The translations under genes and the position numbers were made by a program. From Herbiconiux gentiana (GTDB lineage Bacteria; Actinomycetota; Actinomycetes; Actinomycetales; Microbacteriaceae), in the NCBI RefSeq assembly GCF_024978135.1, contig NZ_JANTEZ010000001.1, positions 682,001 through 746,000 of the forward strand: 64,000 bases of DNA. Direction: 5' to 3'. Position 1 is the first letter of the stretch; every line of letters begins with the position of its first letter. This document shows positions 21,758-38,223 of this stretch, in pieces. The notes under the pieces were generated by a model, which worked only from the letters and a program-made list of their open reading frames with translations, was not told where the DNA came from and ran no database searches.

Positions 21758-22540
21758 GTGGACCGGTTCGCTGATCGTGTCGTGCTCATCACCGGAGGAG
21801 GGTCGGGACTCGGCCGCGCCGCCGCCGTTCGGCTGGCCAAGGAGGGGGCGAGACTCGCTCTCGTCGACGTGTCGGAGCAGGGGCTCGGCGCATCCGTCGA
21901 CGCCGTGAAGGAGGCGAGCCCCGAGGCGGAGGTCGTGACGATCGTCGCCGACGTCTCGAAGGAGGAGGACGTCGACCGCTACGTGGCCGCCACCCTCGAG
22001 GCCTTCGGTCGCATCGACGGCTTCTTCAACAACGCCGGCATCGAGGGCAGGCAGAACCTCACCGAGGCGTTCACCGCCGCCGAGTTCGACCGCGTGGTGG
22101 CGATAAACCTGCGCGGGGTGTTCCTCGGGCTCGAGAAGGTGCTGAAGGTGATGCGCGAGCAGGGCTCGGGCATGGTGGTGAACACGGCGAGCGTGGGCGG
22201 CATCCGCGGCATCGGCAACCAGTCGGGCTACGCGGCCGCGAAGCACGGCGTCGTCGGGCTGACGCGCAACTCGGCCGTCGAGTACGGCGAGTACGGCATC
22301 CGCATCAACGCCATCGCCCCAGGCGCCATCTGGACGCCCATGGTCGAGAACTCGATGAAGCAGCTCGACCCGGAGAACCCGCGGGGTGCGGCCGAGCAGT
22401 TCATCCAGGCCAACCCCACCAAGCGCTACGGCGAGGCGCCCGAGATCGCCTCGGTGGTCGCCTTCCTGCTGAGCGACGACGCCTCGTACGTCAACGCCAC
22501 GGTCGTGCCGATCGACGGCGGGCAGTCCTACAAGTACTGA
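21758..22540 (+). CDS. Classical SDR, possible oxidation step of the B6 pathway
   Basis: A 260-residue SDR: TGGGSGLG (residues 12-19), NNAG (91-94), Ser145, Tyr158 and Lys162 in YAAAKHG. GTG at 21758 is the start because AGGAGGTCGTACC precedes it. It is the outermost gene of the IclR/BMP-importer neighbourhood and is convergent with IclR. The substrate is unknown. Because the B6 gene set has only one GMC oxidoreductase, this SDR is a candidate for the missing oxidation of 4-pyridoxate at C5. That is an inference from position only; the gene could be unrelated. Confidence 0.75.
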   Translation: MDRFADRVVLITGGGSGLGRAAAVRLAKEGARLALVDVSEQGLGASVDAVKEASPEAEVVTIVADVSKEEDVDRYVAATLEAFGRIDGFFNNAGIEGRQNLTEAFTAAEFDRVVAINLRGVFLGLEKVLKVMREQGSGMVVNTASVGGIRGIGNQSGYAAAKHGVVGLTRNSAVEYGEYGIRINAIAPGAIWTPMVENSMKQLDPENPRGAAEQFIQANPTKRYGEAPEIASVVAFLLSDDASYVNATVVPIDGGQSYKY

Positions 22541-22563
22541 GCGACGAACGAGGGCGACGAATC

Positions 22564-23361
22564 TCAGGCGCGGTGCGCGATGGCCTCGCGGAAGGCCTTC
22601 GCGCCCGCCCGGACGGTCTCGGCGATCTGCGTCTTGTGCTCGTCGGAGAGCCGGTAGTCGGGTGCCACGATCGTGAGCGCGCCGACCGAGACGCCACTCG
22701 TCTGCACGCTCGCCGCCGAGGCCCAGACCCCGCGGTCGACCTCGCCGGCGCTCTCGGCGTAGCCGGTGGAGCGCATGGCGTCGAGGTCGTCTTCCAGCTT
22801 CTTGCGCGATGACTTCGACAGGACCGGCCCGAGCCGGTTGAAGTACTGCGCCAGCTTTGCCGGGGGCAGCTCGCTCAGGAGCAGCTTCGCCGCGGCCCCG
22901 CCGTACAGCGGCATCAGCGCCCCGGGCTGGAACGAGATCGAGATCGGATGATCGGACTCCGCGATCGCGAGGCACACCGCCGAGTCGTTGACCCGCCGCA
23001 GGTACAGGGCGGTCTCGCCGGTCTCCTCGGCCATCCGGTTGAGGATGGGCTGCACCTGCGCGCGGAAGTCGATCACCGACTCCGCCGCCCGCGACAAGCG
23101 CAGGATCTGGGGCGAGAGCACGAACCGGCCCTTCTCCCGCTCCTCGATCAGGTCGAGCTCGCGCAGCAGCGAGATGTAGCGATAGGCGCTCGGCACCGAG
23201 ATGTCGTGCTTCTCGAGCACGTTGTCGACCGTGAGCTCGGGGGTCGATTCGCTGAACTCGAGCAGGATCTGCAGGGCGCGTCGCGCGCTGTCGACACCCT
23301 TGGTGCGCTGCGGCTCGGCCGCTGCCGCGGCCGCGGGCTCGTTCTCGTCGTTGGCAATCAT
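22564..23361 (-). CDS. IclR-family transcriptional regulator
   Basis: A 265-residue regulator. A winged HTH occupies about residues 22-85 (LTVDNVLEKHDISVPSAYRY as recognition region). The C-terminal IclR effector domain (residues ~100-260) ends in SGVSVGALTIVAPDYRLSDE. IclR proteins sense small organic acids and control catabolic operons as repressors or activators. It follows the BMP-importer genes with a 43-base gap, so it is probably the last gene of that operon. It is the prime candidate to bind the element shared by the importer and lactonase promoters. Confidence 0.85.
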   Translation of the reverse strand: MIANDENEPAAAAAAEPQRTKGVDSARRALQILLEFSESTPELTVDNVLEKHDISVPSAYRYISLLRELDLIEEREKGRFVLSPQILRLSRAAESVIDFRAQVQPILNRMAEETGETALYLRRVNDSAVCLAIAESDHPISISFQPGALMPLYGGAAAKLLLSELPPAKLAQYFNRLGPVLSKSSRKKLEDDLDAMRSTGYAESAGEVDRGVWASAASVQTSGVSVGALTIVAPDYRLSDEHKTQIAETVRAGAKAFREAIAHRA

Positions 23362-23404: not shown

Positions 23405-24340
23405 TCATCGGGCCCCACGCGAGTAGGCCGCGCCGAGCGCCGGCGGCACGACCGAGCTCCGGGCGAACACGATCAGCATCACGATGACGATGAGGAACGG
23501 CAGCATCTTGATGATGTCGGCCGGCACCGAGACACCGCTCACCTGCAGCGCCGGGCCGATGGCGACGGCGAGCCCGTAGACGAGCGAGGTGATCATGACG
23601 ATCAGGATGCGCCCGCGGGACAGCATCGTGATCACGATCGCGATGAATCCGAGGCCGTTGGTGAGCATCGGGCTGAAGGTCGACGTGGTGAGGAGCGCGA
23701 GATAGGCGCCGCCCATTCCGGCCAGGGCACCGTTCAGCACCACCGCGATCGAGCGGGTGCGCATCACGCTGCCGCCGGCGGCGTCGAGCGACGAGGGCTT
23801 CTGCCCGGCCGAACGGGTCGACAGCCCCCAGTTCGTCCTGGCCATGGCGAACGCGAGACCGAGGGTGATCAGGATGACCACCCAGAAGATGCCCGACTGC
23901 GAGAACACCGCCTGGCCGACGACCGGGATCTCCGACAGGCCCGGGATGGGCATCGACGGCTGCGATCCGAGGCTCGCCGGGGACTTCGTGTAGTTCTGCA
24001 GGTAGAGCACGCTCGTGATGCCCTCGCCGATCAGCGTGACGGCGAGGCCGATGACGATCTGATTGAGCCCGAGCCAGACGTTGAGCACCAGCATGGCGAG
24101 GTTGGCCACGACTCCGCCGACAGCGCCGGCGAGCATCCCGAACCAGAAGTTGCCGGTGGTGAGGGTGGTGACGAACGCGACGTAGGCGCCGATCAGCATG
24201 ACGCCCTCGAGACCGAGGTTCAGCACGCCGGCCTGCTCGCCGATCGTCTCACCCACGGAGGCGAGCATGAGGGGCAGGGCCTGGGCGATCACCGTGGCGA
24301 CGAAGACGGTGACGAAGGCGGTGGAGAGCAGGTCGCTCAT
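23405..24340 (-). CDS. BMP-type ABC importer permease 2
   Basis: A 311-residue inner-membrane permease of the BPD_transp_2/RbsC-like family found with Med/BMP binding proteins. QAGVLNLGLEGVMLIGAYVA is its characteristic signature. About nine hydrophobic spans. It overlaps the first permease by four bases (24337-24340), showing translational coupling. Known relatives import nucleosides; context here suggests a pyridine vitamer. Confidence 0.88.
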   Translation of the reverse strand: MSDLLSTAFVTVFVATVIAQALPLMLASVGETIGEQAGVLNLGLEGVMLIGAYVAFVTTLTTGNFWFGMLAGAVGGVVANLAMLVLNVWLGLNQIVIGLAVTLIGEGITSVLYLQNYTKSPASLGSQPSMPIPGLSEIPVVGQAVFSQSGIFWVVILITLGLAFAMARTNWGLSTRSAGQKPSSLDAAGGSVMRTRSIAVVLNGALAGMGGAYLALLTTSTFSPMLTNGLGFIAIVITMLSRGRILIVMITSLVYGLAVAIGPALQVSGVSVPADIIKMLPFLIVIVMLIVFARSSVVPPALGAAYSRGAR

Positions 24341-25542
24341 GCCCTGGTCCTCTCGGTAGCGGCGGGATCGGTGGGGCCGGGGTCGGCCGGATCGGCGGGG
24401 TCGACCGGGGCCGCGAGCGGCGCGAAGGCCGAGACACGACCGGGGCGCGAGGGGCGCACGAGGCTCGTGACCGTGCGGCGGAGCCCGGCCGGCAGATAGC
24501 TCTGCCCGAGGCGGCGCCGCTCGCCGATGTATTCCGTGATGGTCATGAACAGCAGGATGAGGCCGACGATCACGAGCAGGAAGTCGACGTTCACACCCGC
24601 CTGCTGCGCCGCCAGGGTGCCGCCCGTGGCGAGCACCGCGTAGAACGCCACGAACGGCAGCGACGCGATGGGCCGGAAACGCGCGAGGAAGACCAGGGGC
24701 ATCACGGCGTCGCCGTAGCGCGGATCCCAGTCGGCGCGCTGGTAGCTGAACTGGCCGAGGATGTCGATCGATCCGGCGAAGGCGATCAGGCCGCTCGACA
24801 GGGCGAACAGGAGGATGACCATCCAGGTGGAGTTGAGACCGACGTGGCGGGCCGCCTTGGGGCTCGCACCGAAGATGTCGACCCGCAGGCCGAAGGAGGT
24901 GCGGCTCAGCACGAACTGCGCCACGACGGCCAGCACGATCGCGATCACGAAGCCGATGTGGATCTCGGTGCCGGGGATGTAGGGCAGCAGCTGGTCGTCG
25001 GGGATGACGACGGTCTGCGGCGTCGTGGTCGCCGGGTCCTTGAACACGCCCTTGATGAGGAGGTTCACCACGCCGACCGCGATGAACGACATCACGAGCG
25101 AGGTGATGATCTCGTTCGTGCCGTAGCGGGCCTTCAGGATGGCGGGCACGAGCGACCAGACGGCCCCCGCGAGCACCGCGACCACGAAGACGATGAGGGT
25201 GGCGAGCGCCGCCGGCATCACGCCGAAGAGCACCGGGCCGAGTCCCGAGGCCACGACCGCGCCGAGCAGGTACTGCCCGTTGTAGCCGAGGTTCCAGAGC
25301 TGACCGCGGAAGGCGACGATGAGCCCCACCGCGACGATGACGAGCGGTGCCATCAGCACGAGGCTGCGCTGCCAGTTGTCGCCGGTGACGCCGTACTTCC
25401 AGACGCCGGCGAAGAACTCGGTGGGGCTGGCGCCGATGGCCAGCATGATCAGCGCCGAGACGATCAGGGCGAGCAGCACCGGCACGACCGACCGCACGAA
25501 GCCCTGCAGGATGCGCTGGGCGGAACTGGTCCGGGTGTCCAT
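24337..25542 (-). CDS. BMP-type ABC importer permease 1
   Basis: A 401-residue permease of the same family, longer than its partner. VAFRGQLWNLGYNGQYLLGA is the equivalent signature. After the last span comes a ~60-residue cytoplasmic tail ending in a DPADPADPGPTDP repeat. Its ATG shares one base with the ATPase stop (TGATG). Confidence 0.88.
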   Translation of the reverse strand: MDTRTSSAQRILQGFVRSVVPVLLALIVSALIMLAIGASPTEFFAGVWKYGVTGDNWQRSLVLMAPLVIVAVGLIVAFRGQLWNLGYNGQYLLGAVVASGLGPVLFGVMPAALATLIVFVVAVLAGAVWSLVPAILKARYGTNEIITSLVMSFIAVGVVNLLIKGVFKDPATTTPQTVVIPDDQLLPYIPGTEIHIGFVIAIVLAVVAQFVLSRTSFGLRVDIFGASPKAARHVGLNSTWMVILLFALSSGLIAFAGSIDILGQFSYQRADWDPRYGDAVMPLVFLARFRPIASLPFVAFYAVLATGGTLAAQQAGVNVDFLLVIVGLILLFMTITEYIGERRRLGQSYLPAGLRRTVTSLVRPSRPGRVSAFAPLAAPVDPADPADPGPTDPAATERTRA

Positions 25543-27137
25543 CAGTCGGTGCCCTCGATCGCGCCGGTCATGTAGTGCCCCACCTTCTCGGCCGTTCCCG
25601 GCCCGTCGTTCGTCACGCCGCCCACGAGGCGGCCCCGGGAGATGACCTCGATGCGGTGCGACAGCTCGATCAGTTCGTCGAGGTCGGTCGACAGCAGCAG
25701 CACCGATCCGCCGTCCGCGGCGAAGTCGATGAGCAGCTCGCGCACGAGGTGCACGGTCTTGAGGTCGAGGCCGTAGGTCGGCTTGTTCACGACCACCAGC
25801 TTCGCTCCCCCGGTGAGCTCACGGGCGAGCAGGATCTTCTGGATGTTGCCACCCGAGAGCGTTCCGGCGCGGGTCGCCGGCGATGGGGTGCGGATGCCGT
25901 ACTCCGCGATCAGGCGGTCGGCCTCGATGTCGACGGCCTTCGACTGGATGCGTCCCGACTTCCAGAACGGCGCCTGGCCGATGCGCTTGATCACGAGGTT
26001 CAGCGCGACCGACATGGAGCCGACCGTGCCCTCGTGCAGGCGGTCGTCGGTGACGTAGCGCACACCGAGCTGCTGGCGGCTGCGCACGCCGGTGCGGGTG
26101 ATGTCCTCGCCGTCGAAGACGACGGTGCCGGAAGCGGCGGGGCGCTGACCGGCGACCACCTCGGACAGGGCCTGCTGCCCGTGTCCGTCGATGCCCGCGA
26201 TGCCGAGGATCTCGCCGGCGCGGACGGTGAGCGTGACATCCTCGGTCTCGACGTCGTGGCCCGGGCCACGGCTGGTCACGCCCGAGAGCTGGAGGCGCAC
26301 CGGGCGGCTCGAGAGGTCGAGGGCCGCGGTTTCGCGCTGCGCCTCACCCGCTCCGGCCAGGTCGACGGCGTCGGAGCCGGCTGCCGCCAGGTCGTCGCCG
26401 AACATGGCGGCGAGGATGGCGTCCTGCGCCTGCTCCTCACTGTAGGAGGCGAGCTCGTCGACGCCGATGTGGCCGACGTTGCGGCCGCCGCGGAGCACGG
26501 TGACGCAGTCGCCCATCGCGTAGGCCTCGCGCAGCTTGTGCGTGATCAGCACGACGGCGAGGCCCTGGGCCTTGACCCGGGCGATGCTCTCGCCGAGGTG
26601 CTCGATCGCCTGCGGCGTCAGCATCGACGTGGGCTCGTCGAGCACCAGCAGGCGGCTGCCCTTCCACATCGCCTTCGCGATCTCGACCTGCTGCTGCTGG
26701 CCGAGCCCGAGGTCGGAGGTGAGGGCGTGCGGGTCGATCTCGACGCCGAGCAGCTCGGCGAGCTCGCCGAGGCGCTGGGTGGCGCGCTTGGTGTCGCGCA
26801 TCACGCCCGAGTCGCCGAGCATCAGGTTCTCGAGCACCGTGAACGCCGGCACGAGGGTGGAGTGCTGGTGCACGACGCCGATGCCGAGGTCGACGGCGAC
26901 CTTGGGCGAGCTGATGTCGACCGGCTGCCCGCCGATCGAGACCGTTCCGGAGTCGGGCTGCTGCATGCCGGCGAGGATGCTGATGAGGGTCGACTTGCCG
27001 GCCCCGTTCTCACCGAGCAGGCAGTGCACCTGGCCGCTGACGATGTCGAGCGAGATGTCGTCGTTGGCGACGACCCCGGGGAACGCCTTGGTGATGCCCC
27101 GGAGGGAGATCACCTCGGAGGTGGTCGTTGTCGTCAC
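25542..27137 (-). CDS. BMP-type ABC importer ATPase, two nucleotide-binding domains
   Basis: A 531-residue sugar/nucleoside-type ATPase with duplicated domains. Domain 1 has Walker A GENGAGKST, signature LGLGQQQQVEIAK and Walker B LLVLDEPTSML. Domain 2 has a degenerate Walker A (GIDGHGQQA), signature TLSGGNIQKILLAREL and LVVVNKPTYGLD where DEP is expected, as is normal for the second half in this family. The start is GTG at 27137 because AAGGAG precedes it; the longer reading has no support. It powers the two permeases downstream. Confidence 0.9.
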   Translation of the reverse strand: MTTTTTSEVISLRGITKAFPGVVANDDISLDIVSGQVHCLLGENGAGKSTLISILAGMQQPDSGTVSIGGQPVDISSPKVAVDLGIGVVHQHSTLVPAFTVLENLMLGDSGVMRDTKRATQRLGELAELLGVEIDPHALTSDLGLGQQQQVEIAKAMWKGSRLLVLDEPTSMLTPQAIEHLGESIARVKAQGLAVVLITHKLREAYAMGDCVTVLRGGRNVGHIGVDELASYSEEQAQDAILAAMFGDDLAAAGSDAVDLAGAGEAQRETAALDLSSRPVRLQLSGVTSRGPGHDVETEDVTLTVRAGEILGIAGIDGHGQQALSEVVAGQRPAASGTVVFDGEDITRTGVRSRQQLGVRYVTDDRLHEGTVGSMSVALNLVIKRIGQAPFWKSGRIQSKAVDIEADRLIAEYGIRTPSPATRAGTLSGGNIQKILLARELTGGAKLVVVNKPTYGLDLKTVHLVRELLIDFAADGGSVLLLSTDLDELIELSHRIEVISRGRLVGGVTNDGPGTAEKVGHYMTGAIEGTD

Positions 27138-27191
27138 TGCTGCTCCTTGGGTATCAGGGGCCGGGAGGCGGACTTCGGGGTGAGAAAGGGG

Positions 27192-27225
27192 GCCGGTGCC
27201 GGAGACTGCACGCTCCGGCACCGGC
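27192..27225 (-). terminator. Attenuator-like hairpin after the BMP lipoprotein gene
   Basis: A perfect 13-bp stem (GCCGGTGCCGGAG and its complement) with an eight-base loop lies between the binding-protein gene and the ATPase gene. Such partial terminators commonly keep binding protein in excess over membrane components. There is no T-run. Confidence 0.65.
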
Positions 27226-27238: not shown

Positions 27239-28345
27239 TCAGGCGCCCTTCTTGGCCGCGATGACCGCGGCGACCTCGTCGGCCGAGGTGGCGATCGTCG
27301 GCGTGATGGAGCCGTCGATGATGCCCTGGGAGGCCTTCTCCACGGCGGCCGTGATCTCCGGCGTCATCGCGTCGGTCTCCTGCAGGTACATGCCGCCGTT
27401 CTCGACGTCGACCGGGTAGGTGACGGTGCCGAACGTCCCGGCCTCGACGTCCTTGATCGCGGCGACGTAGGCCGGCTCGTAGTTCCAGCGCACCGAGGTG
27501 AGCAGCTTGCTCGCGTCGCTGAGGCCGGGGGTGACGTCACCGATGTCGGCGATGTACTTGACGTTCGACGCGGCGTCGATGGCCTGCAGGTAACCCTGCG
27601 TCGCACCGTCGCCCATGCCGAACACGACGTCGGCGCCCGAGGCGATGATCTGCTCGGTGGCGGTCTTGCCGCCGGCGGCGTCGGCGTAGGCCGCCGGGCC
27701 GACCGAGGTGTAGAGCACCTGGATGCTCGGGTCGACGCTGTAGACGCCCTCCGCGAAGCCCGACGACATGGCGAACCAGTTCGCGTTGTCGGCCGAGAGC
27801 ACGAGGCCCACCTTCTTCGAGGTGGTCGACATCGCCGCGGCGATACCGGCGAGGTAGCCGCCCTCCTGGCCCTCGGGCTTGGCCGAGGCGATCTGGTTCG
27901 GCACGTTCTGCTCGGAGCCGGCGTCCTGGATCAGGATCGGCACCTTGGTGGCGGCGGCGACGCTGGCCGCACCGACGCCGTAGCCCGAGGCGTGCGCGAC
28001 GATGAACTGCGCTCCCCCGTCGGCCACCTGCGTGAGCACGGTCTCGATGTTGTCGTAGCCGGCGTCGGGGACGACGGTGACCTCGATGCCGAGCTCCTTG
28101 GCGGCCTCATTGGCCGCCTCGATGCCCGCCTGGTTGTAGCCGAAGTCGCTCTCGTTCTCGGGAGCGACCAGGGCGAACTGGGTGACCTCCGTGCCGCCGG
28201 CCGCGGCCGTCGAGGTGGAGTCGGAGTCGTCGCCGCCACGGCCGGACGAGCAGGCCGCCAGGCTCACGGCGAGGGCGCCGGTGACGGTCAGGACGGCGAG
28301 GCGGGTTGCTGTGCGGTGGCGGCCACCGCGAGTGAAACTGTTCAT
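27239..28345 (-). CDS. BMP-family substrate-binding lipoprotein
   Basis: A 368-residue lipoprotein. Signal peptide with lipobox SLAAC, Cys at residue 32. The body is the Bmp/Med fold: QFALVAPENESDFGYNQAGI, then DAGYDNIETVLTQVADGGAQ and FGMGDGATQGYLQAI. Characterised relatives (PnrA, NupN-type) bind purine nucleosides. Here the divergent and downstream genes encode a B6-degrading set, so a pyridine vitamer is a sensible but unproven ligand. GAGGAAG lies about 10 bases before the ATG. It is the first gene of the importer-IclR operon. Confidence 0.88.
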   Translation of the reverse strand: MNSFTRGGRHRTATRLAVLTVTGALAVSLAACSSGRGGDDSDSTSTAAAGGTEVTQFALVAPENESDFGYNQAGIEAANEAAKELGIEVTVVPDAGYDNIETVLTQVADGGAQFIVAHASGYGVGAASVAAATKVPILIQDAGSEQNVPNQIASAKPEGQEGGYLAGIAAAMSTTSKKVGLVLSADNANWFAMSSGFAEGVYSVDPSIQVLYTSVGPAAYADAAGGKTATEQIIASGADVVFGMGDGATQGYLQAIDAASNVKYIADIGDVTPGLSDASKLLTSVRWNYEPAYVAAIKDVEAGTFGTVTYPVDVENGGMYLQETDAMTPEITAAVEKASQGIIDGSITPTIATSADEVAAVIAAKKGA

Positions 28346-28426
28346 TGCCGAGATCTTCCTCTCAGGGTGATGGGCCCCTGGTCGTTGTGGTGTCGGTGCG
28401 GTGGATCCTCTTACATTGTGCAGGGG

Positions 28427-28445
28427 TAGCGATACGATATGAGAA
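28427..28445. promoter_or_regulatory. Shared regulatory element, copy 1, importer promoter
   Basis: TAGCGA-tac-GATATGAGAA. The same TAGCGA and GATATGAGAA blocks occur at 29015-29030 without the three-base spacer. It lies about 90 bases upstream of the BMP lipoprotein start, near its likely promoter. Candidate IclR operator. Confidence 0.5.
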
Positions 28446-28528
28446 GAATCCGTGAATGCCAAGCACGACTTCCAGTTGTTACACGTCCGAAACACGCTCC
28501 GTCGACGATGACAGGAGGAGGCTTCACC

Positions 28529-28921
28529 ATGAACCGCAGAGCTCTGCCACTCGTTCTCGCCGTCGCTGCACTGACCCTCACCGCGTGCGCATCCACTCCG
28601 ACCATCTCGGAGCAGGACGCATCGGCGCTGGCCGATCTCGCCGCGGTCGCGGGCCCGACGTCGAACGTCGATCCCGCCACGATCACGAGCACCGAGTGCT
28701 GGCTGCCCTCGGATCACCTGATCGACGACGACAGCGTCAGCAGCACGACCTTCAAGGTGCTCTGCCGAGCGCACTACACCGATGCGAGCGGAGATCGATA
28801 CCAGGATGCCACCTGCGTGGGCGACCTGGCCGCGCATCCGGCCCTCGACCACTGCTACCGCTGGGCCCCCTACACGGGAGAGCCCGCGTTCGACGACTTC
28901 CCCGCCGTACCGGCAGGCTGA
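28529..28921 (+). CDS. Small secreted lipoprotein of unknown function
   Basis: A 130-residue lipoprotein with signal and lipobox LTLTACASTP (Cys about residue 20). The mature part has five Cys, including ECWLPSDHLIDDDS, FKVLCRAHYTD, DATCVGDL and DHCYRW, which could form two disulfides. AGGAGGAGG precedes the ATG at 28529. It sits alone between the importer and the lactonase promoter, within the B6 locus. I do not recognise the family; a role in substrate capture is only a guess. Confidence 0.65.
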   Translation: MNRRALPLVLAVAALTLTACASTPTISEQDASALADLAAVAGPTSNVDPATITSTECWLPSDHLIDDDSVSSTTFKVLCRAHYTDASGDRYQDATCVGDLAAHPALDHCYRWAPYTGEPAFDDFPAVPAG

Positions 28922-30547: not shown

Positions 30548-32086
30548 ATGGGCACGAGCAGCACCAACACCCGCACCGATGTCCTGATCATCGGCGCGGG
30601 GTCGGCGGGCAGCGTCGTCGCGAACCGGCTGAGCGCCGACCCGTCGCGGAGCGTGACCGTGCTCGAGGCCGGCACGCGCGTGACCGATCCCGAGATGCGA
30701 CGGCCCGAGCTCTGGCCGTTCATCCACGGCCGCTCCTATGACTGGGCGTACCGCACCACCCCGCAGCCCGGTCTCGCCGGCCGTTCGCTCGACTGGGCGC
30801 GCGGCCGCGGCCCCGGCGGCTCGAGCCTCGTGCATGCCATGGCGCACATGCGCGGCTGCCGGGCCGACTTCGACCGCTGGGTCGAGGCCACCGGCGACGA
30901 GCGGTGGGGGTGGGATGCTCTGCTGCCCTACTTCGACCGCACCGAGTCGGTGCTTCCCGTGCTCCGGCCGGGCCCCGAGCTCTCGAGCCCGCTGGTGCAG
31001 GACTACCTCGCCGCGTGGGAGTCGCTGGGAGTGCCGAGCATTCCCGACCACAACCACAACGGCGGCGAGATGCTGGGCGCGACCCCGAACTCGGTGACCA
31101 TCCGCGACGGCGAGCGGGTGACCGTCTCCGACGTCTACCTCGACCCCGTGCTGGAGCGGCCGAACCTCACCCTCCACACCGGCGTCACGGTGCACCGGCT
31201 GCTGATCGACGGCGGCCGGGTGACGGGCGTCACCGTGACGATCGACGGTCGCGACGGGGTGCTGACGGCCGACGAGGTGATCCTCTGCGGCGGCTCGATC
31301 GGTGACCCGCTGCTGCTCATGCGCTCGGGCATCGGCGACCCCGCCGTGCTCGAGGCCGCGGGTGTCGAGGTGCTGCTGCCGTCGGAGCAGGTCGGCAAGA
31401 ACCTGCACGACCACCTCCTGGGGGCCGGCAACGTCTACACCTCGCGCCGCGACGTGCCCCCGACGCGGCTGCAGCTGTCGGAGTCGATGACGTACCAGTC
31501 GCGGCTCGGGCTCACCGAGACCGCCGGGCCGATCGACCTCGTGGTCGGCTGTGTCGTCGGGCCGAGCGCGTCCGAGGCGCTGGCAGCCGAGGCCGCCGAC
31601 GCCGTCCCGGGGCACGCGTACACGCTGCTGTTCGGGGTGACCAACCCCACCAGCCGAGGATCGCTCCGGATCTCGGGGCCCGACCTCGACGACGAGCCGG
31701 TGATCGACCCGAACTACCTCGACACCGAGCACGACCGGGAGCTGTTCCGCCTGGCGCTCGAGCGCGCGCGCCTCGTGGGCGCCTCGGCGGGCCTGTCGGC
31801 CTGGCGCGACCGCGAGGTGCTGCCGGGGCGCTCGCTCGCCGCCGGCGACGACGCCGCGGCCGACGCGTTCATCGCTCGGGCGGCCATCACGCACCACCAC
31901 CCCGTGGGCACCCTGCGCATGGGTGACGGCGACGAGGCCCCGGTCACGCCGGAACTGCGCGTGCGGGGCCTCGACAACCTGTTCGTGGTGGACGCCGCGG
32001 TGATCCCCTCGATCACCGCGGGCCCGGTGCACGCCTCCGTGCTCGCGATCGCGGAGGCGTTCAGCGCGCGTTACACGGCGCTGTAG
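30548..32086 (+). CDS. GMC flavoprotein oxidoreductase, probable pyridoxine 4-oxidase
   Basis: A 512-residue GMC enzyme. The FAD motif is DVLIIGAGSAGSVVANRLS and the second signature GPGGSSLVHAMAHMRG. The active-site block ITHHHPVGTLRMG contributes His449 and His451; the second block SITAGPVHAS has Pro493 where most GMC enzymes carry Asn or His. From memory, Mesorhizobium loti pyridoxine 4-oxidase uses His460, His462 and an unusual Pro504, giving the same 42-residue spacing. The related 4-pyridoxate dehydrogenase is also GMC-type, so that is the main alternative. It is the third gene of the lactonase operon. Confidence 0.75.
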   Translation: MGTSSTNTRTDVLIIGAGSAGSVVANRLSADPSRSVTVLEAGTRVTDPEMRRPELWPFIHGRSYDWAYRTTPQPGLAGRSLDWARGRGPGGSSLVHAMAHMRGCRADFDRWVEATGDERWGWDALLPYFDRTESVLPVLRPGPELSSPLVQDYLAAWESLGVPSIPDHNHNGGEMLGATPNSVTIRDGERVTVSDVYLDPVLERPNLTLHTGVTVHRLLIDGGRVTGVTVTIDGRDGVLTADEVILCGGSIGDPLLLMRSGIGDPAVLEAAGVEVLLPSEQVGKNLHDHLLGAGNVYTSRRDVPPTRLQLSESMTYQSRLGLTETAGPIDLVVGCVVGPSASEALAAEAADAVPGHAYTLLFGVTNPTSRGSLRISGPDLDDEPVIDPNYLDTEHDRELFRLALERARLVGASAGLSAWRDREVLPGRSLAAGDDAAADAFIARAAITHHHPVGTLRMGDGDEAPVTPELRVRGLDNLFVVDAAVIPSITAGPVHASVLAIAEAFSARYTAL

Positions 32087-32096
32087 AGCCGGTTCG

Positions 32097-32555
32097 CTAC
32101 TCGGTGCTGAAGGTGCCGACGTAGCGGGCCGTCTCGATCACCGAGTCGGCGTACTTCTGCAGGAACTCCTCGCGCGAGGGGTCGCCCTCGACGGGCGTCT
32201 TCAGCGCGTAGAGGTGGAAGAAGTAGTGGTGGTCGCCGTGACCGGCCGGCGGCTGCGGGCCGTAGTACTGCGTGGCGCCCGCGCCGTTCGGGGCGACGTG
32301 CACCCCGGGGGCCGAGAGGTCGAGCGTTCCGTCGATGGGCGGGATGCCGTAGGCGACCCAGTGGGTGAAGCCGTTGGGCAGCGGCGCGTCGGGGTCGTTC
32401 AGGATGAGCGCGAACTCGACGGTGCCCTCGGGAGCGCCCGAGACCTCGATGGTCGGGGTGTCGTTGCCGCCGTCGGCGCTGTAGTTCGCCGGGATGCGGC
32501 CGCCGTTCGGGAAGTCGGGGCTCGAGACGGCGAGCTTGTCGATTAAGAGGGCCAT
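32097..32555 (-). CDS. YbhB/YbcL-type PEBP-family protein
   Basis: A 152-residue phosphatidylethanolamine-binding/Raf-kinase-inhibitor-like protein. The ligand site is visible as LNDPDAPLP, FTHWVAYGIP and YYGPQPPAGHGDHHYFFHLY. Bacterial members are cytosolic or periplasmic with poorly known roles. It is the last gene of the long minus-strand B6 operon, 31 bases after the hydrolase, and ends 10 bases from the convergent GMC gene. No known B6 step needs it; binding of an anionic intermediate is conceivable. Confidence 0.85.
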   Translation of the reverse strand: MALLIDKLAVSSPDFPNGGRIPANYSADGGNDTPTIEVSGAPEGTVEFALILNDPDAPLPNGFTHWVAYGIPPIDGTLDLSAPGVHVAPNGAGATQYYGPQPPAGHGDHHYFFHLYALKTPVEGDPSREEFLQKYADSVIETARYVGTFSTE

Positions 32556-32586: not shown

Positions 32587-33426
32587 TCAGACCCCGAGGG
32601 CGAGCGCGATCTCTGCGGCCACCAGCTCGGGATGCTCTTCGGGGATGTAGTGGTCGGCCTCGGCCACGACGACGAAACGGTCGTCGGGCCGCTCGGTCAT
32701 GGCGCTCGCCCAGGAGGGCTCGCTGACGATCCTGCTCGCCTCGCCGCGGAGGTGCACCATCGGCACGGCGACTTCACGGAACTCGTCGAGGTACGGGGTG
32801 CGGAAGCCCTCGATCAGCTGCCGCATGGCGGCCGGGTCGGCGCGGGGCACCCAGCTGTCGGCGGCATCCTGCCGGTAGCCCCAGCGGGCGCGGCGCTCGA
32901 CGGCGCCGGGCAGGATGGCCGGGTAGCGCTCGCGCAGATACTGCTCGATGGCGGCCCGGTCGGGGAACGAGCGGAAGCCGGCGGCGACCCGCACGTCGAG
33001 CTCGTCGAGCACCTCCGGTTCGACGAAGGGGGTGTAGTCGACGACCACCGCGCCCGTGACCCGGCCCGGCTGACGGGCGGCCGCGAGCCAAGCGTTGCGC
33101 CCGCCGAGCGAGTGCCCGGCGACGAGCGCCCGCTCGAGGCCGAGGGCGTCGAGCACGGTGACGACGTCGGAGACGAAGTCGTCGCCGGTGTAGCCGCTGG
33201 CGGGTTTGTCGCTCCGGCCGTGTCCGCGCTGGTCGAGCGCGATCACGGTGGCCCGGGAGGCGAGGGCGTCGCCCACCGGCTCCCAGACCGCGTGGTTGGC
33301 GGAGGTGCCGTGCAGCAGCACCACCGCCGGGCCCGAGCCGCGCATCCGGAACGCCAGGTCGACGCCGGCGCCGCGGGTGCGCAGGAGCCCGTCGCCGATC
33401 TCGACGACGGGCACGCTGCGGGACAT
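32587..33426 (-). CDS. Alpha/beta hydrolase, probable (E)-2-(acetamidomethylene)succinate hydrolase
   Basis: A 279-residue alpha/beta-hydrolase. The nucleophile elbow GHSLGG gives Ser106, the acid is Asp130 (VVVDYTP) and the His is His259 (EADHYIPEEHP). From memory, the Mesorhizobium loti enzyme triad is Ser106-Asp130-His258, almost the same numbering. The reaction releases succinate semialdehyde, acetate, ammonia and CO2 from the ring-opened product, ending B6 pathway I. The ATG shares a base with the preceding stop (TGATG). Without context the fold would fit many esterases. Confidence 0.75.
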   Translation of the reverse strand: MSRSVPVVEIGDGLLRTRGAGVDLAFRMRGSGPAVVLLHGTSANHAVWEPVGDALASRATVIALDQRGHGRSDKPASGYTGDDFVSDVVTVLDALGLERALVAGHSLGGRNAWLAAARQPGRVTGAVVVDYTPFVEPEVLDELDVRVAAGFRSFPDRAAIEQYLRERYPAILPGAVERRARWGYRQDAADSWVPRADPAAMRQLIEGFRTPYLDEFREVAVPMVHLRGEASRIVSEPSWASAMTERPDDRFVVVAEADHYIPEEHPELVAAEIALALGV

Positions 33427-34361
33427 CAGACGTTCGGGATGGTCGACAGGGTCTTCCGCGCCGCGATGAGACCGGTGATGATCTCCTTGCGCTTGGCGTC
33501 GACGTCGCCCTCGCCGTACTCGTACATGCCGGCGCCCGACTTGAAGCCGAGCTCGCCCGCGGCGATCTTGTCCTTGATGAACTGAGGGGTGTCGGTGGAG
33601 TTGTCGAGGTCCTTGTTCAGGTAGCTCGAGACGGCCTGGTAGATGTCGAGGCCGGCCATGTCGAGCAGACGGGTCGGGCCGACGACGGAGAGCTTGTAGC
33701 CGATCCCCCACTTCACGGCGGCGTCGAGGCCCTCGGGGGTGACGATGCCCTCCTCGAGCAGCGCCATGCACTCGCGCAGGATCGCGTAGAGCACGCGGTT
33801 CTCGACGAAGCCGGGGATCTCCTTCTCGATCACGGGCACGTAGTTGAAGGCCTTGACGATCTCGGCGAGCTTGTCGACCAGGGTGGGGTCGGTGGCCTCG
33901 CCCGGGATGATCTCGATCATCGGGATGAGGTGCGGCGGGTTCGACCAGTGCATGCCGATCAGGCGGCCGGGCACGGTGAGGCTCTTCGCCATGGTGCTGA
34001 TCGGGATGCCCGAGGTGTTCGTCGCGATGATGACGTCGTCACCCACCCGCGCCTCGAGGTCGGCGAAGACCTTCTGCTTGAGCTCGAGCTTCTCGGGCAC
34101 GGCCTCGATGATCAGCTCGGTGCCGGCGAGGGCGGCGTCGAGGTCGGTGCCGAAGGTGACGGATCCGCCGGGGGCCGACGGGGAGTCGACGGCCTCGAGC
34201 ACGCCCTGCACGACGCCGTAGGCGGCCTCGGCGCGGGCGATCGCGTCCTCGGAGATGTCGTAGAGGCGCACGGTGCTGCCGGCGCGGGCCAGGGTGGCGG
34301 CGATGCCGGGGCCCATGGTTCCCGAGCCGATGACGGTGGCGACGGTGGGGAGACTGCTCAT
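33426..34361 (-). CDS. 3-hydroxyacyl-CoA dehydrogenase-like enzyme, probable FHMPC 5-dehydrogenase
   Basis: A 311-residue NAD-dependent enzyme. The Rossmann motif is VIGSGTMGPGIAATLARAG, catalytic-region His138 lies in GMHWSNPPHLIPMIEI, and the C-terminal dimer domain contains GFVENRVLYAILRECMALLE. In B6 pathway I the 5-formyl-3-hydroxy-2-methylpyridine-4-carboxylate dehydrogenase belongs to this family and makes the 4,5-dicarboxylate. No beta-oxidation genes are adjacent, which favours that role. I use ATG 34361; GTG at 34373 is an alternative. Confidence 0.75.
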   Translation of the reverse strand: MSSLPTVATVIGSGTMGPGIAATLARAGSTVRLYDISEDAIARAEAAYGVVQGVLEAVDSPSAPGGSVTFGTDLDAALAGTELIIEAVPEKLELKQKVFADLEARVGDDVIIATNTSGIPISTMAKSLTVPGRLIGMHWSNPPHLIPMIEIIPGEATDPTLVDKLAEIVKAFNYVPVIEKEIPGFVENRVLYAILRECMALLEEGIVTPEGLDAAVKWGIGYKLSVVGPTRLLDMAGLDIYQAVSSYLNKDLDNSTDTPQFIKDKIAAGELGFKSGAGMYEYGEGDVDAKRKEIITGLIAARKTLSTIPNV

Positions 34362-34454
34362 CGTGGTGCTCACTTTCGCGGGGTGGAGTGGTGTGGGGTG
34401 GTCGGAGGTGGGGGTGGGGCGTCGGGCGTCGGGTGCGGGCCGTCGGCCCGCGGG

Positions 34455-35234
34455 TCAGATGCCCGGCGGCAGGGCGATCGGCGAGATGCCGATGCCGAAC
34501 GCCGACTCGACGCGGTCGAGGCGGCGGTTGAAGAAGGTCCAGAAGTTGTGCTGGGCCTTCGCCGGGTAGATGCGGTCGAACTTCTCCTTGGTCTCCTCGG
34601 CGTCGGGCTCGATCGGGGCGAAGCCCGAGGCCTTGAGGTCGACCTGGAAGCGCGCGGCCTTCTCGAGGAAGATGCCGGTGAGGGTCACCTCGGCCACGGT
34701 CGAGCCGACGAAGGCGACACCGTGATTGGCGAGGAGGATCGCCTGCGCGTCGCCGAGCGCCTTCGCCGCCGCGACGCCGAGCGGCACCGTGGTGATGATG
34801 TGGCTCGTCTCGGTGAAGCGCGGCACACCCTCGTAGGCGAACCAGACGCCGTGGTTGTTGTACGGCTTCAGCGGCTCCTCCGAGGCGCCGAGCACCGTGG
34901 AGTAGTGGGCGTGCGAGTGACCGACGAAGTTCACGTCGGGGCGCGCCTTCATGATCTCGGCATGCAGCGGCCACTCGAGGTGACGGAGGCCCGAGCCCTC
35001 GAGCACGTTCCCGTCGAAGTCGATCAGGATGAAGTCGTCGCCCTCGACCTCGCTGAGGGCGAGGTTGCCGCGCTTGAGCCAGAGGCCCCGGCCGAACGGG
35101 TCGCGGAACGACAGGTGCCCCATCGACATGTCGCCGTGCCCCTCGAGTTCGAGGATGCGGTGGGCCCGCGCGACGTCGGCGAGGATGCTCGCGATGGACT
35201 GGTCTTCGTAGTACTGGGTGTGCGAGTAGCTCAT
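34455..35234 (-). CDS. Class II aldolase-fold enzyme, probable HMPDC 4-decarboxylase
   Basis: A 259-residue class II aldolase/adducin family protein. GHSHAHYS gives metal ligands His106, His108 and perhaps His110; LLANHGVAFVG supplies His171; HAEIMKARPDV carries Glu93. The family includes fuculose-phosphate aldolase and 3-hydroxy-2-methylpyridine-4,5-dicarboxylate decarboxylase. The latter fits exactly between the FHMPC dehydrogenase and monooxygenase genes. GGAGCATCC precedes the ATG. It is 93 bases upstream of the next gene in the operon. Confidence 0.78.
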   Translation of the reverse strand: MSYSHTQYYEDQSIASILADVARAHRILELEGHGDMSMGHLSFRDPFGRGLWLKRGNLALSEVEGDDFILIDFDGNVLEGSGLRHLEWPLHAEIMKARPDVNFVGHSHAHYSTVLGASEEPLKPYNNHGVWFAYEGVPRFTETSHIITTVPLGVAAAKALGDAQAILLANHGVAFVGSTVAEVTLTGIFLEKAARFQVDLKASGFAPIEPDAEETKEKFDRIYPAKAQHNFWTFFNRRLDRVESAFGIGISPIALPPGI

Positions 35235-35290: not shown

Positions 35291-35872
35291 TTACTTCGAG
35301 GCGAGCACGTCGGCGACGGTCATGCCGCCGACCCGGGCGTTGACCCGGCCACCGGTGGCCACCGCCGCGATGATGACGATCTCGTCGGGCCGCGGTGCAT
35401 CCGGAAGCGTCAGCGTGATCGCGTCGTAGTGCGACCGAACGTAGACCTCGTCCTTGTACGCCAGCGGGATGTCGATCGGAGCGCCGGTGGGCGCGACCTT
35501 CGTGGCCGAGGAGATCCAGGCCTCGCCGCCGCCGACCGCGTCGCGGAGGGCGTTGCCGAAGACGGTGGTCACGCAGGCCACGATGTGCTCCTGCTCGCCG
35601 TTCACGCCGACCATCCCGCCCTTGCCGTAGCTCTCGACGGGGCGCCCGCCGAGCAGGGCGGCCGCTCGGCGGCCGAGCTCCGTGCCGAGGCTCGCGCTGG
35701 CGTCGGTGAGGGGCGAGAGGTCGTCGACCCAGCGGCCCGTGAACGGGTTCTCGAACACGACGGCGACTGCGGCCTTCACCAGCGGCTGCTCGGGCGCGGG
35801 GCCGAGCTCGTGCACGGTCTCCTGCACGAACGAGTGCCAGGCCCTGACCTTGTAGATGGAGTCGATGCTCAT
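35291..35872 (-). CDS. DUF1185 'amino acid synthesis' family protein
   Basis: A 193-residue protein of the DUF1185 family (PF06684), whose function is not established despite the name. Recognisable features are AVVFENPFTGRWVDDLSPL near residue 40 and GKGGMVGVNGEQEHIVACV in the middle. It overlaps the monooxygenase gene by four bases (ATGA), so the two are translationally coupled. Its place between ring decarboxylation and ring opening suggests an accessory role in handling a pyridine intermediate, but that is inference. Confidence 0.7.
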   Translation of the reverse strand: MSIDSIYKVRAWHSFVQETVHELGPAPEQPLVKAAVAVVFENPFTGRWVDDLSPLTDASASLGTELGRRAAALLGGRPVESYGKGGMVGVNGEQEHIVACVTTVFGNALRDAVGGGEAWISSATKVAPTGAPIDIPLAYKDEVYVRSHYDAITLTLPDAPRPDEIVIIAAVATGGRVNARVGGMTVADVLASK

Positions 35873-37011
35873 GCTGCGTGTACCTCGTGTCGCTTGGGGT
35901 CGGTCGGGTTGTAGAGGGCGGTCTCGACGCTCTCGCCGGTGAACTGGTTGCCGTTCGCCATCTCGCGGGTATCGGCGTACCACTGCGAGCGGTCCTGGGC
36001 GCGGTCGGTGTAGGGGCGCTCGAGGCGCTCCCACTCCTGCAGCGCTCCGGGCAGCTCGTCGTCCGCGGCCTCGGTGGCCGCGACGGCGAGCGTCCAGGCG
36101 TTCTGCATCGCGGTTCCGGCGCCCTGGGCGAGGGCCGGGCACATGGCGTGCGCCGAGTCGCCGATCAGAGCGACGCGTCCCTCGGTCCACCGGTCGAGAC
36201 GGGTGGTCTGGTAGCCGTAGTAGCGGCCCTGCACTCCCGCCGCCTCCTCGAGCACGGGGGCGAGCTGCGGGAAGATCGACGTCCACAGCTCGAGGTCGAT
36301 CGGCACGCGCGAGCCGTCGGCGTCGGCCGAGGGCGACATCAGCGCGATGTACAGCTCCTCGTCGTTGGCCGGCGTGTAGAGCACGCGCAGCACGCGGGGG
36401 TCGAGGTTCCAGAAGTCGATCACGTTGTCCCACTCGGTGTCGGGCTCGAGCGCCTGCAGCTCGGCCTTCTTGCGGGGCACGAGGAAGCGGGTGATGCCGT
36501 CGCGCGAGCGCTCGCGCTTCAGCGGGATCTTCAGCGAGTCGCGCACCGCCGAGCCCACGCCGTCGGCGCCGATCACCAGGTCGGCCTGGGCGGTCTCGCC
36601 GTTCGCGAAGGTCACCGTACCCTCGGGGGTCGCACCGGTCACCGCGGAGTCGGCCACGATCTCGACACCCGACTCCCGCGCCGCGGTGAGCAGCGTCTGG
36701 TGCAGGTGCGGCCGCGTCATCGTGCGCCAGCGGATGCCCTCCAGGGTCTCCTGCGACTGGATGACGTTGTTCATGCGGGTCTCGTACGCCGGCGGGGTCA
36801 TCGACCGCGCGTCGAGGTCGGGCGTGGCGCCGATGGCGTCGAGCACCTGGAGGCTGTTGTTCCAGAGCACGATGCCCGCTCCCTCGGCGCGGAGCTCCGA
36901 GGCGCGCTCGTGGAGCCGGACGCTCCATCCGCGCTGGGCGAGTGCGGTGGCCGCGGTCAGTCCCGCGAACCCTCCGCCCGAGATCTCGGCGTGACGGCGG
37001 CTGTCGGTCAT
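35869..37011 (-). CDS. FAD-dependent monooxygenase, probable 2-methyl-3-hydroxypyridine-5-carboxylate oxygenase
   Basis: A 380-residue group A flavin monooxygenase. GGGFAGLTAATALAQRGWSV binds FAD, and GDSAHAMCPALAQGAGTAMQ is the second conserved GD motif. Aromatic-ring hydroxylases of this length include MHPC oxygenase, which both hydroxylates and cleaves the pyridine ring to (E)-2-(acetamidomethylene)succinate. The neighbours for the steps before and after are present, making this the best assignment. The ATG at 37011 opens behind a GACAGACAGGACAGAC stretch with no strong ribosome site. Confidence 0.78.
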   Translation of the reverse strand: MTDSRRHAEISGGGFAGLTAATALAQRGWSVRLHERASELRAEGAGIVLWNNSLQVLDAIGATPDLDARSMTPPAYETRMNNVIQSQETLEGIRWRTMTRPHLHQTLLTAARESGVEIVADSAVTGATPEGTVTFANGETAQADLVIGADGVGSAVRDSLKIPLKRERSRDGITRFLVPRKKAELQALEPDTEWDNVIDFWNLDPRVLRVLYTPANDEELYIALMSPSADADGSRVPIDLELWTSIFPQLAPVLEEAAGVQGRYYGYQTTRLDRWTEGRVALIGDSAHAMCPALAQGAGTAMQNAWTLAVAATEAADDELPGALQEWERLERPYTDRAQDRSQWYADTREMANGNQFTGESVETALYNPTDPKRHEVHAA

Positions 37012-37086
37012 GTCTGTCCTGTCTGTCTGGTCGTGGTGTGCGTGTCTGTTCGCGTCGCGCGCGGTCGGGTCAGGGCCGATGGCCCG

Positions 37087-38223
37087 TCAGAGTCCCGTGG
37101 CGGCGCCGATCCTGATGGCGGAGAGGCCGATCACCTCGGCGATGCCGACGGCGTTCTCGACGCCGGCCGCTCCGGCGAACTCCTCGGCCCCGGTCGGCGT
37201 GTGATAGCGCCAGCCCTCGGCGCGGCCGACGCCCACGAGGGCGGCGCGGGCCACGCGGGTGACGTTGCCGAAGTCGGTGGCGAAGCCGAGCGCGGGCGGG
37301 TCGGCGATGAACTCGCGACCGGCGGCGGCGAAGGCGTCGCCCACGAGGGCGATCACCTCGGGGTCGGGGCGCACGGGCGCGATCGGCGCCGAGCTGGTCC
37401 AGACGGCCTCGCCGACGATGCCGTGCACCGTGTCGGCGAGCGCGTCGAGCCCCTCGTCGTCGTCGGCGAAGAGCAGGAAGGAGGCCTCGAAGACCATCCC
37501 CGCCCCTTCCTCGACGTCGCCGTCGACGGAGACCGACTCGATGATCAGGCGGGCCGGGTCGACGGCCCCGGCGAGCGCCGTGACGTTCGCCAGGGCCACG
37601 AGCGGCGTGCAGACGACGTCGCGGCGCAGGGTGCGCACCCCCACCACGCGGGCGGTCTCCCGGCGCATGGCGAGCGAGGCGGGCCAGACGGTGTCGATGA
37701 ACTCCGGATGCGGGTAGAGCACGACGTCCACGTCGTCCCAGACACCGGCCGCGGCCGTGAGGGCCTTGCCGCTGCCGCGCTCGCGGGTGAGCGGGGAGTG
37801 GATCTCGTCGGCCGGGCATCCGACGACCACGACCCGACCGGTGAGCTGCTCGCGCACGGCGGCGAGCGCCAGAGCGGCACCGATCACGCCGGCGGACTGC
37901 GGACCGTGGCCGCAGGAGTGCACCGGAGCGACGTGGCCCTCGGCGTCGTAGGAGGCGGGGGCGTCGTAGACGGCGATGACGCCGACGGTCGCGCCCGGGG
38001 CGCCGAGGTCGAGCTCGGCTCGGAAGGCCGTGGCCATGCCCGCGACACCCTCGGTGACCGTGTAGCCTGCGCCGCGCAACAGGCCCACCAGGTGCGCAGC
38101 GGTCTCGGTCTCCTGGTGCGCCAGTTCGGGATGCGCGGTGACGAAGTCGACCGTCTCGCCGATCACCGGGGCGAGCCCCGCGACGGCCTCGCGGTACTGT
38201 TCATCGAGCTGCTGCTCGGTCAT
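37087..38223 (-). CDS. Atypical M20-family amidohydrolase
   Basis: A 378-residue M20-like metallo-hydrolase and the first gene of the minus-strand B6 operon. The metal motifs are unusual: AVYDAPASYDAEGH where most M20 members read HxD or DMDALP, and PVHSCGHGPQSAG where CGHDGH is common. ADEIHSPLTRERG supplies the acidic residue. This resembles the AbgB-like branch that splits amides with few visible His ligands. Possible substrates are an N-acyl or amide form of a vitamer, or a salvage side product. GAGGGGGCGCAGC precedes the ATG. Confidence 0.65.
   Translation of the reverse strand: MTEQQLDEQYREAVAGLAPVIGETVDFVTAHPELAHQETETAAHLVGLLRGAGYTVTEGVAGMATAFRAELDLGAPGATVGVIAVYDAPASYDAEGHVAPVHSCGHGPQSAGVIGAALALAAVREQLTGRVVVVGCPADEIHSPLTRERGSGKALTAAAGVWDDVDVVLYPHPEFIDTVWPASLAMRRETARVVGVRTLRRDVVCTPLVALANVTALAGAVDPARLIIESVSVDGDVEEGAGMVFEASFLLFADDDEGLDALADTVHGIVGEAVWTSSAPIAPVRPDPEVIALVGDAFAAAGREFIADPPALGFATDFGNVTRVARAALVGVGRAEGWRYHTPTGAEEFAGAAGVENAVGIAEVIGLSAIRIGAATGL

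Follow-up and report, generated by a model that had tools for sequence, protein, structure and literature searches.

A predicted vitamin B6 degradation locus in Herbiconiux gentiana, with a BMP-type ABC system as candidate vitamer importer

Background

Does a 64,000-nucleotide stretch of the genome of Herbiconiux gentiana, a soil-type actinobacterium (assembly GCF_024978135.1, contig NZ_JANTEZ010000001.1, positions 682,001 to 746,000; hereafter the window) encode both the uptake and the breakdown of vitamin B6, and could the BMP-type ABC importer encoded there be the system that brings the vitamin into the cell? The initial annotation, made without database searches, had described a near-complete pathway I of B6 degradation in this stretch together with such an importer. 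Pathway I was reportedly worked out in Mesorhizobium loti. The BMP family, for its part, is known mainly for nucleosides, and few bacterial B6 importers are known.

Excerpts of a 2023 comparative-genomics paper (PMC9997740) count only three characterised prokaryotic B6 transporters, PdxU, PdxU2/HmpT and P5PA, none of the BMP type, and state that in most species, among them E. coli and B. subtilis, the B6 transporter has yet to be identified. According to the same excerpts these three take up B6 vitamers, as is proposed here for the BMP-type system, and belong to other families (PF07155 and PF13531). Searches of an open-access library aimed at this link listed no paper that reports a BMP importer for B6, which agrees with what the initial annotation had stated.

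Our answer is that the locus probably encodes both functions: uptake of an unphosphorylated B6 vitamer by the BMP-type ABC system, and its degradation along pathway I. Protein families, best matches, gene order and co-occurrence were taken from sequence, and the order of the pathway I reactions is established background.

Results and discussion

The catabolic enzymes

The cluster occupies 22.5-38.2 kb of the window, whose contig belongs to a 3.85 Mb genome, and comprises an IclR-type regulator gene, an ABC importer, a small lipoprotein gene and two runs of enzyme genes (Table 1). The plus-strand run (lactonase, SDR, GMC) faces a minus-strand run (PEBP, hydrolase, 3HCDH, aldolase, DUF1185, monooxygenase, M20), and genes within the runs overlap by at most 7 bases or lie at most 81 bases apart. 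The two facing operons had been read correctly from the outset, and Pfam scans of the window genes confirmed all of the families at the places named for them.

We compared each enzyme with its best match among all solved structures in the PDB and with its best match of another kind, as well as with the curated equivalog cut-offs of NCBIfam. For six of the seven catabolic enzymes the best match is a characterised enzyme of vitamin B6 pathway I. Two enzymes, the 4-pyridoxolactonase and the SDR-type pyridoxal 4-dehydrogenase, score over their equivalog cut-offs; the GMC oxidase, which passed no NCBIfam equivalog, is assigned as pyridoxine 4-oxidase by best match only, and is 52% identical to a PNO-like gene of M. 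loti LU. Wide gaps between best and next kind of PDB match set the proteins among B6 enzymes rather than those of nicotinate or 3-hydroxybenzoate clusters. In the 2-methyl-3-hydroxypyridine-5-carboxylate oxygenase (MHPCO), 55% identical to that of M. loti, residues Tyr76, Arg175, Arg209 and Tyr221 are invariant in an eight-row alignment and are the counterparts of Tyr82, Arg181, Arg211 and Tyr223, which we take to be the substrate contacts of the M. loti enzyme. Likewise, Ser121, His142, Glu154 and Asn192 of the 5-formyl-3-hydroxy-2-methylpyridine-4-carboxylate (FHMPC) dehydrogenase, presumably its catalytic residues, are invariant among 14 sequences.

Two results sit less easily with this picture. 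The best family of the FHMPC dehydrogenase, NF042925, is matched at 390 bits, under its cut-off of 500, and the decarboxylase candidate matches Mlr6791 of M. loti at 64 bits, only in fourth place after three PDB entries titled 'Aldolase' (8IQA, 8IL8, 8IX6). Because the match to the M. loti enzyme is weak (34% over 187 amino acids to the decarboxylase of M. loti LU), its role rests on superfamily and place in the locus; the class II aldolase-type enzyme is probably the 3-hydroxy-2-methylpyridine-4,5-dicarboxylate (HMPDC) 4-decarboxylase, as a weak member of the set.

The same families serve pathway I in M. loti, in pyridoxine oxidation, pyridoxal dehydrogenation, lactone opening, FHMPC oxidation, ring opening and hydrolysis of 2-(acetamidomethylene)succinate (AAMS), and the M. 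loti LU locus likewise carries DUF1185, PEBP and a BMP importer. The window differs in having no 4-pyridoxate dehydrogenase (4PADH) in the locus, a divergent decarboxylase and another gene order; no pyridoxamine aminotransferase was found in the window, unlike M. loti LU, and its BMP gene lies beside the lactonase on the opposite strand, whereas in M. loti LU both are on one strand. Judged from these matches, the enzymes are a member of the known pathway I, in a variant without an M. loti-type 4PADH in the locus. The pathway had rightly been called near-complete, while the description of its families as exactly those of M. loti overlooks two points, the lack of a 4PADH in the locus and the distant decarboxylase.

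Could the substrate be some other 3-hydroxypyridine? We regard this as very improbable, given that lactonase and pyridoxal dehydrogenase exceed equivalog cut-offs, that pyridoxine 4-oxidase is the best match of the oxidase by a wide margin, and that relatives add a homologue of pyridoxamine aminotransferase. What speaks for it comes from other loci. MHPCO homologues at 37-42% identity occur on plasmids (12 records), and as the three records opened (H1-H3) show other gene contexts, we did not retain these plasmid relatives as B6 clusters. Furthermore, three loci (L112, L121 and L130; G and L numbers are our own labels) carry MHPCO, DUF1185, PEBP and the hydrolase, and the stretch available shows neither dehydrogenase nor decarboxylase; they perhaps act on another pyridine substrate.

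Conservation of the locus

A search for MHPCO (E <=1e-50) in 398 genomes of the window's family, from 85 genera, found the gene in 25 genomes and 16 genera, including five of the 11 genomes of the window's genus, its own counted. Hydrolase, dehydrogenase, aldolase-type enzyme and DUF1185 accompany MHPCO in 23 of the 24 relatives' loci that were read, in rearranged gene order, and 20 of the 24 hold importer, lactonase and pyridoxal dehydrogenase; among the four that do not hold all three are a 4.7-kb contig (G012) and two other short contigs (G368, G177). A scan of GTDB species genomes, from which 80 loci of 100 relatives were kept, extended the range to Microbacteriaceae, Streptomyces, Streptomonospora, Georgenia, Arthrobacter, Mesorhizobium and other Alphaproteobacteria. 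The tabulated set used below comprises 87 loci, 42 actinobacterial and 45 proteobacterial. Such a grouping of genes is far beyond chance.

It should also be mentioned that an Amidohydro_2 (PF04909) gene lies between oxidase and PEBP in G242 (L041:14978-15697) and also in G026, with homologues in 12 of the 42 actinobacterial loci and none found in the window, and that in L078 the match to pyridoxine oxidase comes in two pieces, perhaps from a split or broken gene.

A BMP-type importer linked to B6 genes

The Bmp protein, two BPD_transp_2 permeases and a tandem ATPase make up an ABC importer of the BMP/PnrA type. A profile for the B6-type BMP (1e-45) matched 25 of the 398 family genomes, 24 of which are also among the 25 with MHPCO (Fisher 3e-36, not corrected for relatedness). 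In a second sample, 199 genomes of the M. loti family, a lactonase over cut-off was found in 25 and the BMP in 29, all 25 being shared (Fisher 6e-28); in 24 of these 25 the two genes are on one contig with starts 4,415-4,839 bases apart, and in one they are on split contigs. The four M. loti-family genomes with BMP and no lactonase at 1e-90 (G470, G497, G591, G602) encode, within ~4 kb, a homologue of pyridoxamine-pyruvate aminotransferase that is ~66-71% identical to the M. loti protein and exceeds the equivalog cut-off in all three that were scanned (the fourth, L191, was outside the scan). In M. loti LU itself the genes run on one strand in the order BMP, ATPase, permease, permease, lactonase, aminotransferase and pyridoxal dehydrogenase, the last two both over their equivalog cut-offs. 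Nineteen further-studied genomes separate in the same way: the BMP subfamily scores at least 490 bits in seven and at most 148 bits in the others, and the same seven, and no other, have a lactonase over cut-off.

Within the tabulated set, 26 of the 42 actinobacterial loci hold the BMP. All 26 also hold lactonase and pyridoxal dehydrogenase, and a homologue of the small lipoprotein; 21 have an oxidase match above 400 bits, and 14 an aminotransferase with pyridoxamine-pyruvate transaminase as its top-scoring family, although the one scanned scored 406 bits, under the cut-off of 600.

Three of the M. loti-family loci with importer and pyridoxamine aminotransferase and without lactonase (L190, L192, L193) stand beside SDR genes and a gene that resembles MmgE/PrpD by eye, which in L192 had no NCBIfam match. 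L192 also has a 3-hydroxyisobutyrate-dehydrogenase-like gene (scanned) and L193 a similar one by eye; these three loci are possibly a different B6 route. The fourth, L191 (in G497), combines importer and aminotransferase homologue with a GMC enzyme that shares 56% identity with the pyridoxine oxidase of the window, again without lactonase.

In a tree of BMP proteins, 38 from B6 loci (26 actinobacterial and 12 alphaproteobacterial) are split by a branch with support 98* from 28 rows of other BMPs, 26 of them different. The B6 rows were collected by similarity to the window BMP, which favours their grouping but had no influence on whether they lie in B6 loci. For the binding pocket, excerpts of a paper on BmpA place Asp98, Lys242 and Asp225 to engage the ribose and two Phe to sandwich the base (PMC13325309). 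We matched Asp225 and Lys242, two of the three ribose residues, to alignment columns by motif pattern: at these columns 13 of 13 B6-locus BMPs have Ile268 and Trp287, whereas of the 26 other BMPs 20 keep the Asp and 18 the Lys, and one carries Trp. His118 and Trp190 are fixed in the same 13, against one and none of the 26 others, and aromatic residues stand at 70 and 220 in the B6 group. The signature of the B6 BMPs reads AHASG, Trp190, Ile268 and Trp287. By the tree and the gap in subfamily scores, the importer's BMP belongs to a distinct subfamily.

The system shares its Bmp domain, two permeases and tandem ATPase with the nucleoside importers (PnrA, BmpD, BmpA) and RfuA. Among solved structures, PnrA, a Conexibacter protein and Lbp come nearest to the predicted fold of the window BMP (pLDDT 84); the riboflavin binder RfuA follows at rank 21, and identities over ranks 1-22 are 17-24%. 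Unlike the nucleoside binders, it has Ile and Trp for the ribose Asp and Lys and is linked to B6 genes. On this comparison it is built like a BMP importer and is not assignable to the nucleoside-binding branch.

These fold matches nevertheless bear on an alternative, in which the importer is a linked passenger of the locus with other cargo than a free vitamer, for example a nucleoside that serves some unrelated purpose, 4-pyridoxolactone, or a glycoside or adduct of B6. The best fold matches with a named ligand are indeed mostly nucleoside-bound (PnrA, Lbp-guanosine, BmpD), and in G003 (L188) importer and small lipoprotein stand alone, the 31 kb read containing no catabolic gene of those searched for. 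Against it stand the replaced ribose-contacting residues, the linkage and co-occurrence with B6 genes in two phyla with differing gene orders, and, in genomes that lack the lactonase, the link to a homologue of pyridoxamine aminotransferase; we consider this alternative unlikely, although a derivative of a vitamer may be the cargo. The G003 arrangement, perhaps one of salvage only, counts against a B6-catabolic importer all the same, as do a genome (G188) that has MHPCO and no B6-type BMP, with the lower pathway only and an NMT1-type importer, and the fact that the BMP tree came from a quick search with long-branch warnings. Taken together, co-occurrence, linkage, tree and residues lend strong comparative support to the tie between importer and B6 that the initial annotation had drawn, and the importer is a well-supported candidate for a new class of vitamin B6 importer.

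Loci with the lower pathway only

The 16 actinobacterial loci without BMP include short contigs (G368, G177, G012, L099, L100), and in the genomes of G368, G177 and G012 the BMP is present on another contig. The contig of L087 ends inside the BMP gene, and L107 holds MHPCO and PEBP only. Nine more (G188, L082, L097, L102-L106, L108) are lower-pathway-only loci, with no upper-pathway gene in the stretch read; all nine match an NMT1-type binding protein (query from G188), and none of the eight genomes searched (L105 being outside the search) has a lactonase over cut-off. Both importer types are found in proteobacterial loci, BMP in 40 of 45 and the NMT1-type protein in 29, and a single actinobacterial BMP locus of the 26 (G047) has both. 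Because the NMT1 type accompanies lower-pathway-only loci and the BMP loci with the upper pathway, we propose that the BMP system carries B6 vitamers and the NMT1 type 4-pyridoxate. 4-Pyridoxate is the main animal excretion product of B6, and if the NMT1-type importer takes it up, the lower-pathway-only loci would be a removal route for that product; nothing relevant to 4-pyridoxate degradation in the gut was among the literature matches listed.

The missing 4-pyridoxate dehydrogenase

None of the 42 actinobacterial loci, the window included, has a separate gene for a GMC-type 4PADH of the M. loti kind; the highest match among them, at 300 bits, is to the oxidase gene of the G338 locus. Of the 45 proteobacterial loci, 41 carry a second GMC enzyme of the M. 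loti type (at least 937 bits). The M. loti LU locus encodes such a separate GMC enzyme between decarboxylase and FHMPC dehydrogenase, which we take to be the place of mlr6792, the 4-pyridoxate dehydrogenase. Since no 4PADH is found in the locus, we propose that in actinobacteria one 3HCDH-type enzyme performs both oxidations, of 4-pyridoxate and of FHMPC; from the sequence comparisons we would put this at about an even chance. The FHMPC dehydrogenase of M. loti is said to be a dismutase that interconverts FHMPC and 4-pyridoxate, and that also forms 4-pyridoxate.

Nearly as probable, in our estimate just short of even, is that either the pyridoxine oxidase or an enzyme encoded elsewhere in the genome, in place of the 3HCDH-type dehydrogenase, converts 4-pyridoxate to FHMPC, as the separate GMC enzyme of M. 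loti LU might lead one to expect. The window genome offers a single match to 4PADH at 1e-40, namely its pyridoxine oxidase. Against a dual-function dehydrogenase, six of the eight lower-pathway-only genomes searched (G403, G404, G406, G407, G408, G412) have unlinked GMC matches to 4PADH (<=1e-40), those of G404, G406 and G408 at <=1e-100 and 40-46% identity, and G155 has a second match besides its oxidase. However, nine further GMC enzymes of M. loti LU also match 4PADH at 40-44%; such matches are unspecific, and the unlinked ones need not be 4PADH, although some may be. Lower-pathway-only loci, moreover, hold no oxidase, and at 1e-40 the search for GMC enzymes like 4PADH came up empty in three genomes, G402 (the same genome as G188), G405 and G414. 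The reported interconversion by the FHMPC dehydrogenase also speaks for the single-enzyme proposal. The full combination, in which a BMP subfamily of Actinomycetota and Alphaproteobacteria imports a B6 vitamer, the NMT1 type takes 4-pyridoxate and one NAD-dependent dehydrogenase replaces 4PADH in actinobacteria, is accordingly held tentatively, at somewhat below an even chance.

A proposed route

The substrate of the importer, the dual action of the dehydrogenase and the roles of DUF1185, PEBP, M20 and the small lipoprotein are our proposals in the following scheme. The BMP-type importer would take up pyridoxal and/or pyridoxine, and in relatives pyridoxamine too. The GMC oxidase would convert pyridoxine to pyridoxal, the SDR pyridoxal to 4-pyridoxolactone, and the MBL lactonase the latter to 4-pyridoxate, whose 5-hydroxymethyl group the 3HCDH-type enzyme may oxidise by way of FHMPC to the dicarboxylate, performing both oxidations. 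Decarboxylation of the dicarboxylate by the class II aldolase-type enzyme would be followed by ring opening by MHPCO, and the AAMS hydrolase would hydrolyse the ring-opened product towards succinate semialdehyde. DUF1185 and PEBP may assist around and after ring opening, and IclR would control expression.

Accessory proteins and regulation

DUF1185 and PEBP are near-constant partners of the locus, found in 83 and 81 of the 87 loci, respectively; where one or both are missing, the contig is shorter than 11 kb in G012, G177, L099 and L100, and longer in G248, L107 and L114. The predicted model of the window's DUF1185 protein (pLDDT 87.3) matches at E <0.001 only the solved DUF1185 proteins, 3BYQ and 2QTP, and a RidA-like fold, considered at first, was set aside, further fold matches being at 0.01 or worse. 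Excerpts of an earlier paper describe the fold as chorismate-mutase-like and, from fold and context, propose a place in amino-acid metabolism (PMC2954203). A homologous protein, TgnF, belongs to another route, trigonelline degradation in Acinetobacter baylyi: excerpts of a paper on coumarin report that TgnF stimulates succinate semialdehyde oxidation, and that HcdD, of the formerly-DUF1185 family and homologous to TgnF, showed no such stimulation (PMC7913881). By this analogy, DUF1185 may plausibly be a late-step accessory of ring opening. Pathway I, too, leads to succinate semialdehyde, which is what makes such a role plausible.

M20 genes occur in 16 of the 42 actinobacterial loci, at varying positions. 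IclR homologues are present in 30 of the 42, and in 21 of the 26 with BMP, and the IclR-type protein probably controls the locus. Two conserved elements are candidate regulator sites (Table 1): one is a footprint over the window and ten relatives, and the other looks, by eye, like the sequence that precedes the oxygenase gene in G242, G230 and G288.

Features of the locus and its neighbours

Table 1. Predicted features of the vitamin B6 locus, in window positions; 'next' gives the E-value of the best PDB match of another kind.
Feature	Position	Strand	Evidence or remark
SDR at 21.7 kb, probably neighbour, not pathway member	21716-22540	+	
IclR-type regulator, probable locus regulator	22564..23361	-	Pfam IclR_C, HTH_IclR
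ABC permease 2 (BPD_transp_2)	23405..24340	-	44.7% identity to M. loti LU homologue in lactonase run
ABC permease 1 (BPD_transp_2)	24337..25542	-	44.1% identity to M. loti LU homologue
ABC ATPase, two ABC_tran nucleotide-binding stretches	25542..27221	-	47.9% identity to M. loti LU homologue
BMP-type substrate-binding lipoprotein, proposed B6 vitamer binder	27239..28345	-	Pfam Bmp 74.5 bits (from longer reading frame), tree, residues; start placed at 28345 gives 368 amino acids, lipobox LAAC
Conserved element, candidate regulator site	28409..28446		divergent importer/lipoprotein promoter region; footprint over 11 loci
Small lipoprotein, first gene of plus run	28529..28921	+	no Pfam family
TCTC...GAGA element, candidate regulator site	28990..29022		upstream of lactonase
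4-pyridoxolactonase (MBL)	29050..29808	+	NF047925 426 bits (cut-off 325); PDB 3AJ3 1e-75, next 5e-35
Pyridoxal 4-dehydrogenase, SDR type	29808..30545	+	NF047923 383 bits (cut-off 325)
Pyridoxine 4-oxidase (GMC)	30548..32086	+	PDB 3T37, 4HA6 ~1e-153, next 4e-68
PEBP-family protein, conserved partner	32097..32555	-	Pfam PBP; 17-row alignment
AAMS hydrolase, alpha/beta hydrolase	32587..33432	-	PDB 3KXP 1e-58, next 1e-18
FHMPC 5-dehydrogenase (3HCDH type), proposed also to oxidise 4-pyridoxate	33426..34373	-	PDB 4OM8 5e-89, next 4e-44
Class II aldolase-type enzyme, probable HMPDC 4-decarboxylase	34455..35234	-	Pfam Aldolase_II
DUF1185 (PF06684), proposed late-step accessory of ring opening	35291..35875	-	family, conservation, predicted model
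MHPCO, ring opening	35869..37011	-	PDB 3ALJ 1e-120, next 3e-25
M20 amidohydrolase-like protein, co-located accessory	37087..38223	-	Pfam Peptidase_M20

Two SDR genes lie in the region, and membership in the pathway could be upheld for the one in the plus-strand run and not for the one at 21.7 kb. The latter was rejected as pathway member or 4PADH: a homologue above 300 bits was found only in G205 among the 87 loci, many of which carry just 10 kb of flank, limiting this comparison. As the G205 homologue sits ~18 kb from that genome's B6 cluster, the window gene is probably a neighbour. Further upstream, 19892-20914 on the minus strand encodes a Dioxygenase_C (Pfam) protein with a lipoprotein-like start by eye, whose homologue in L074 (82%) lies ~5 kb from the MHPCO gene.

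Conclusions

DUF1185 and PEBP gain a pathway context from this locus, and the 4-pyridoxate dehydrogenase gap becomes an enzymological question. A BMP subfamily with its own residue signature and B6 linkage, present in M. loti too, would be a testable candidate for filling the gap in our knowledge of B6 uptake, and the label 'nucleoside importer' should not spread to B6-type BMPs.

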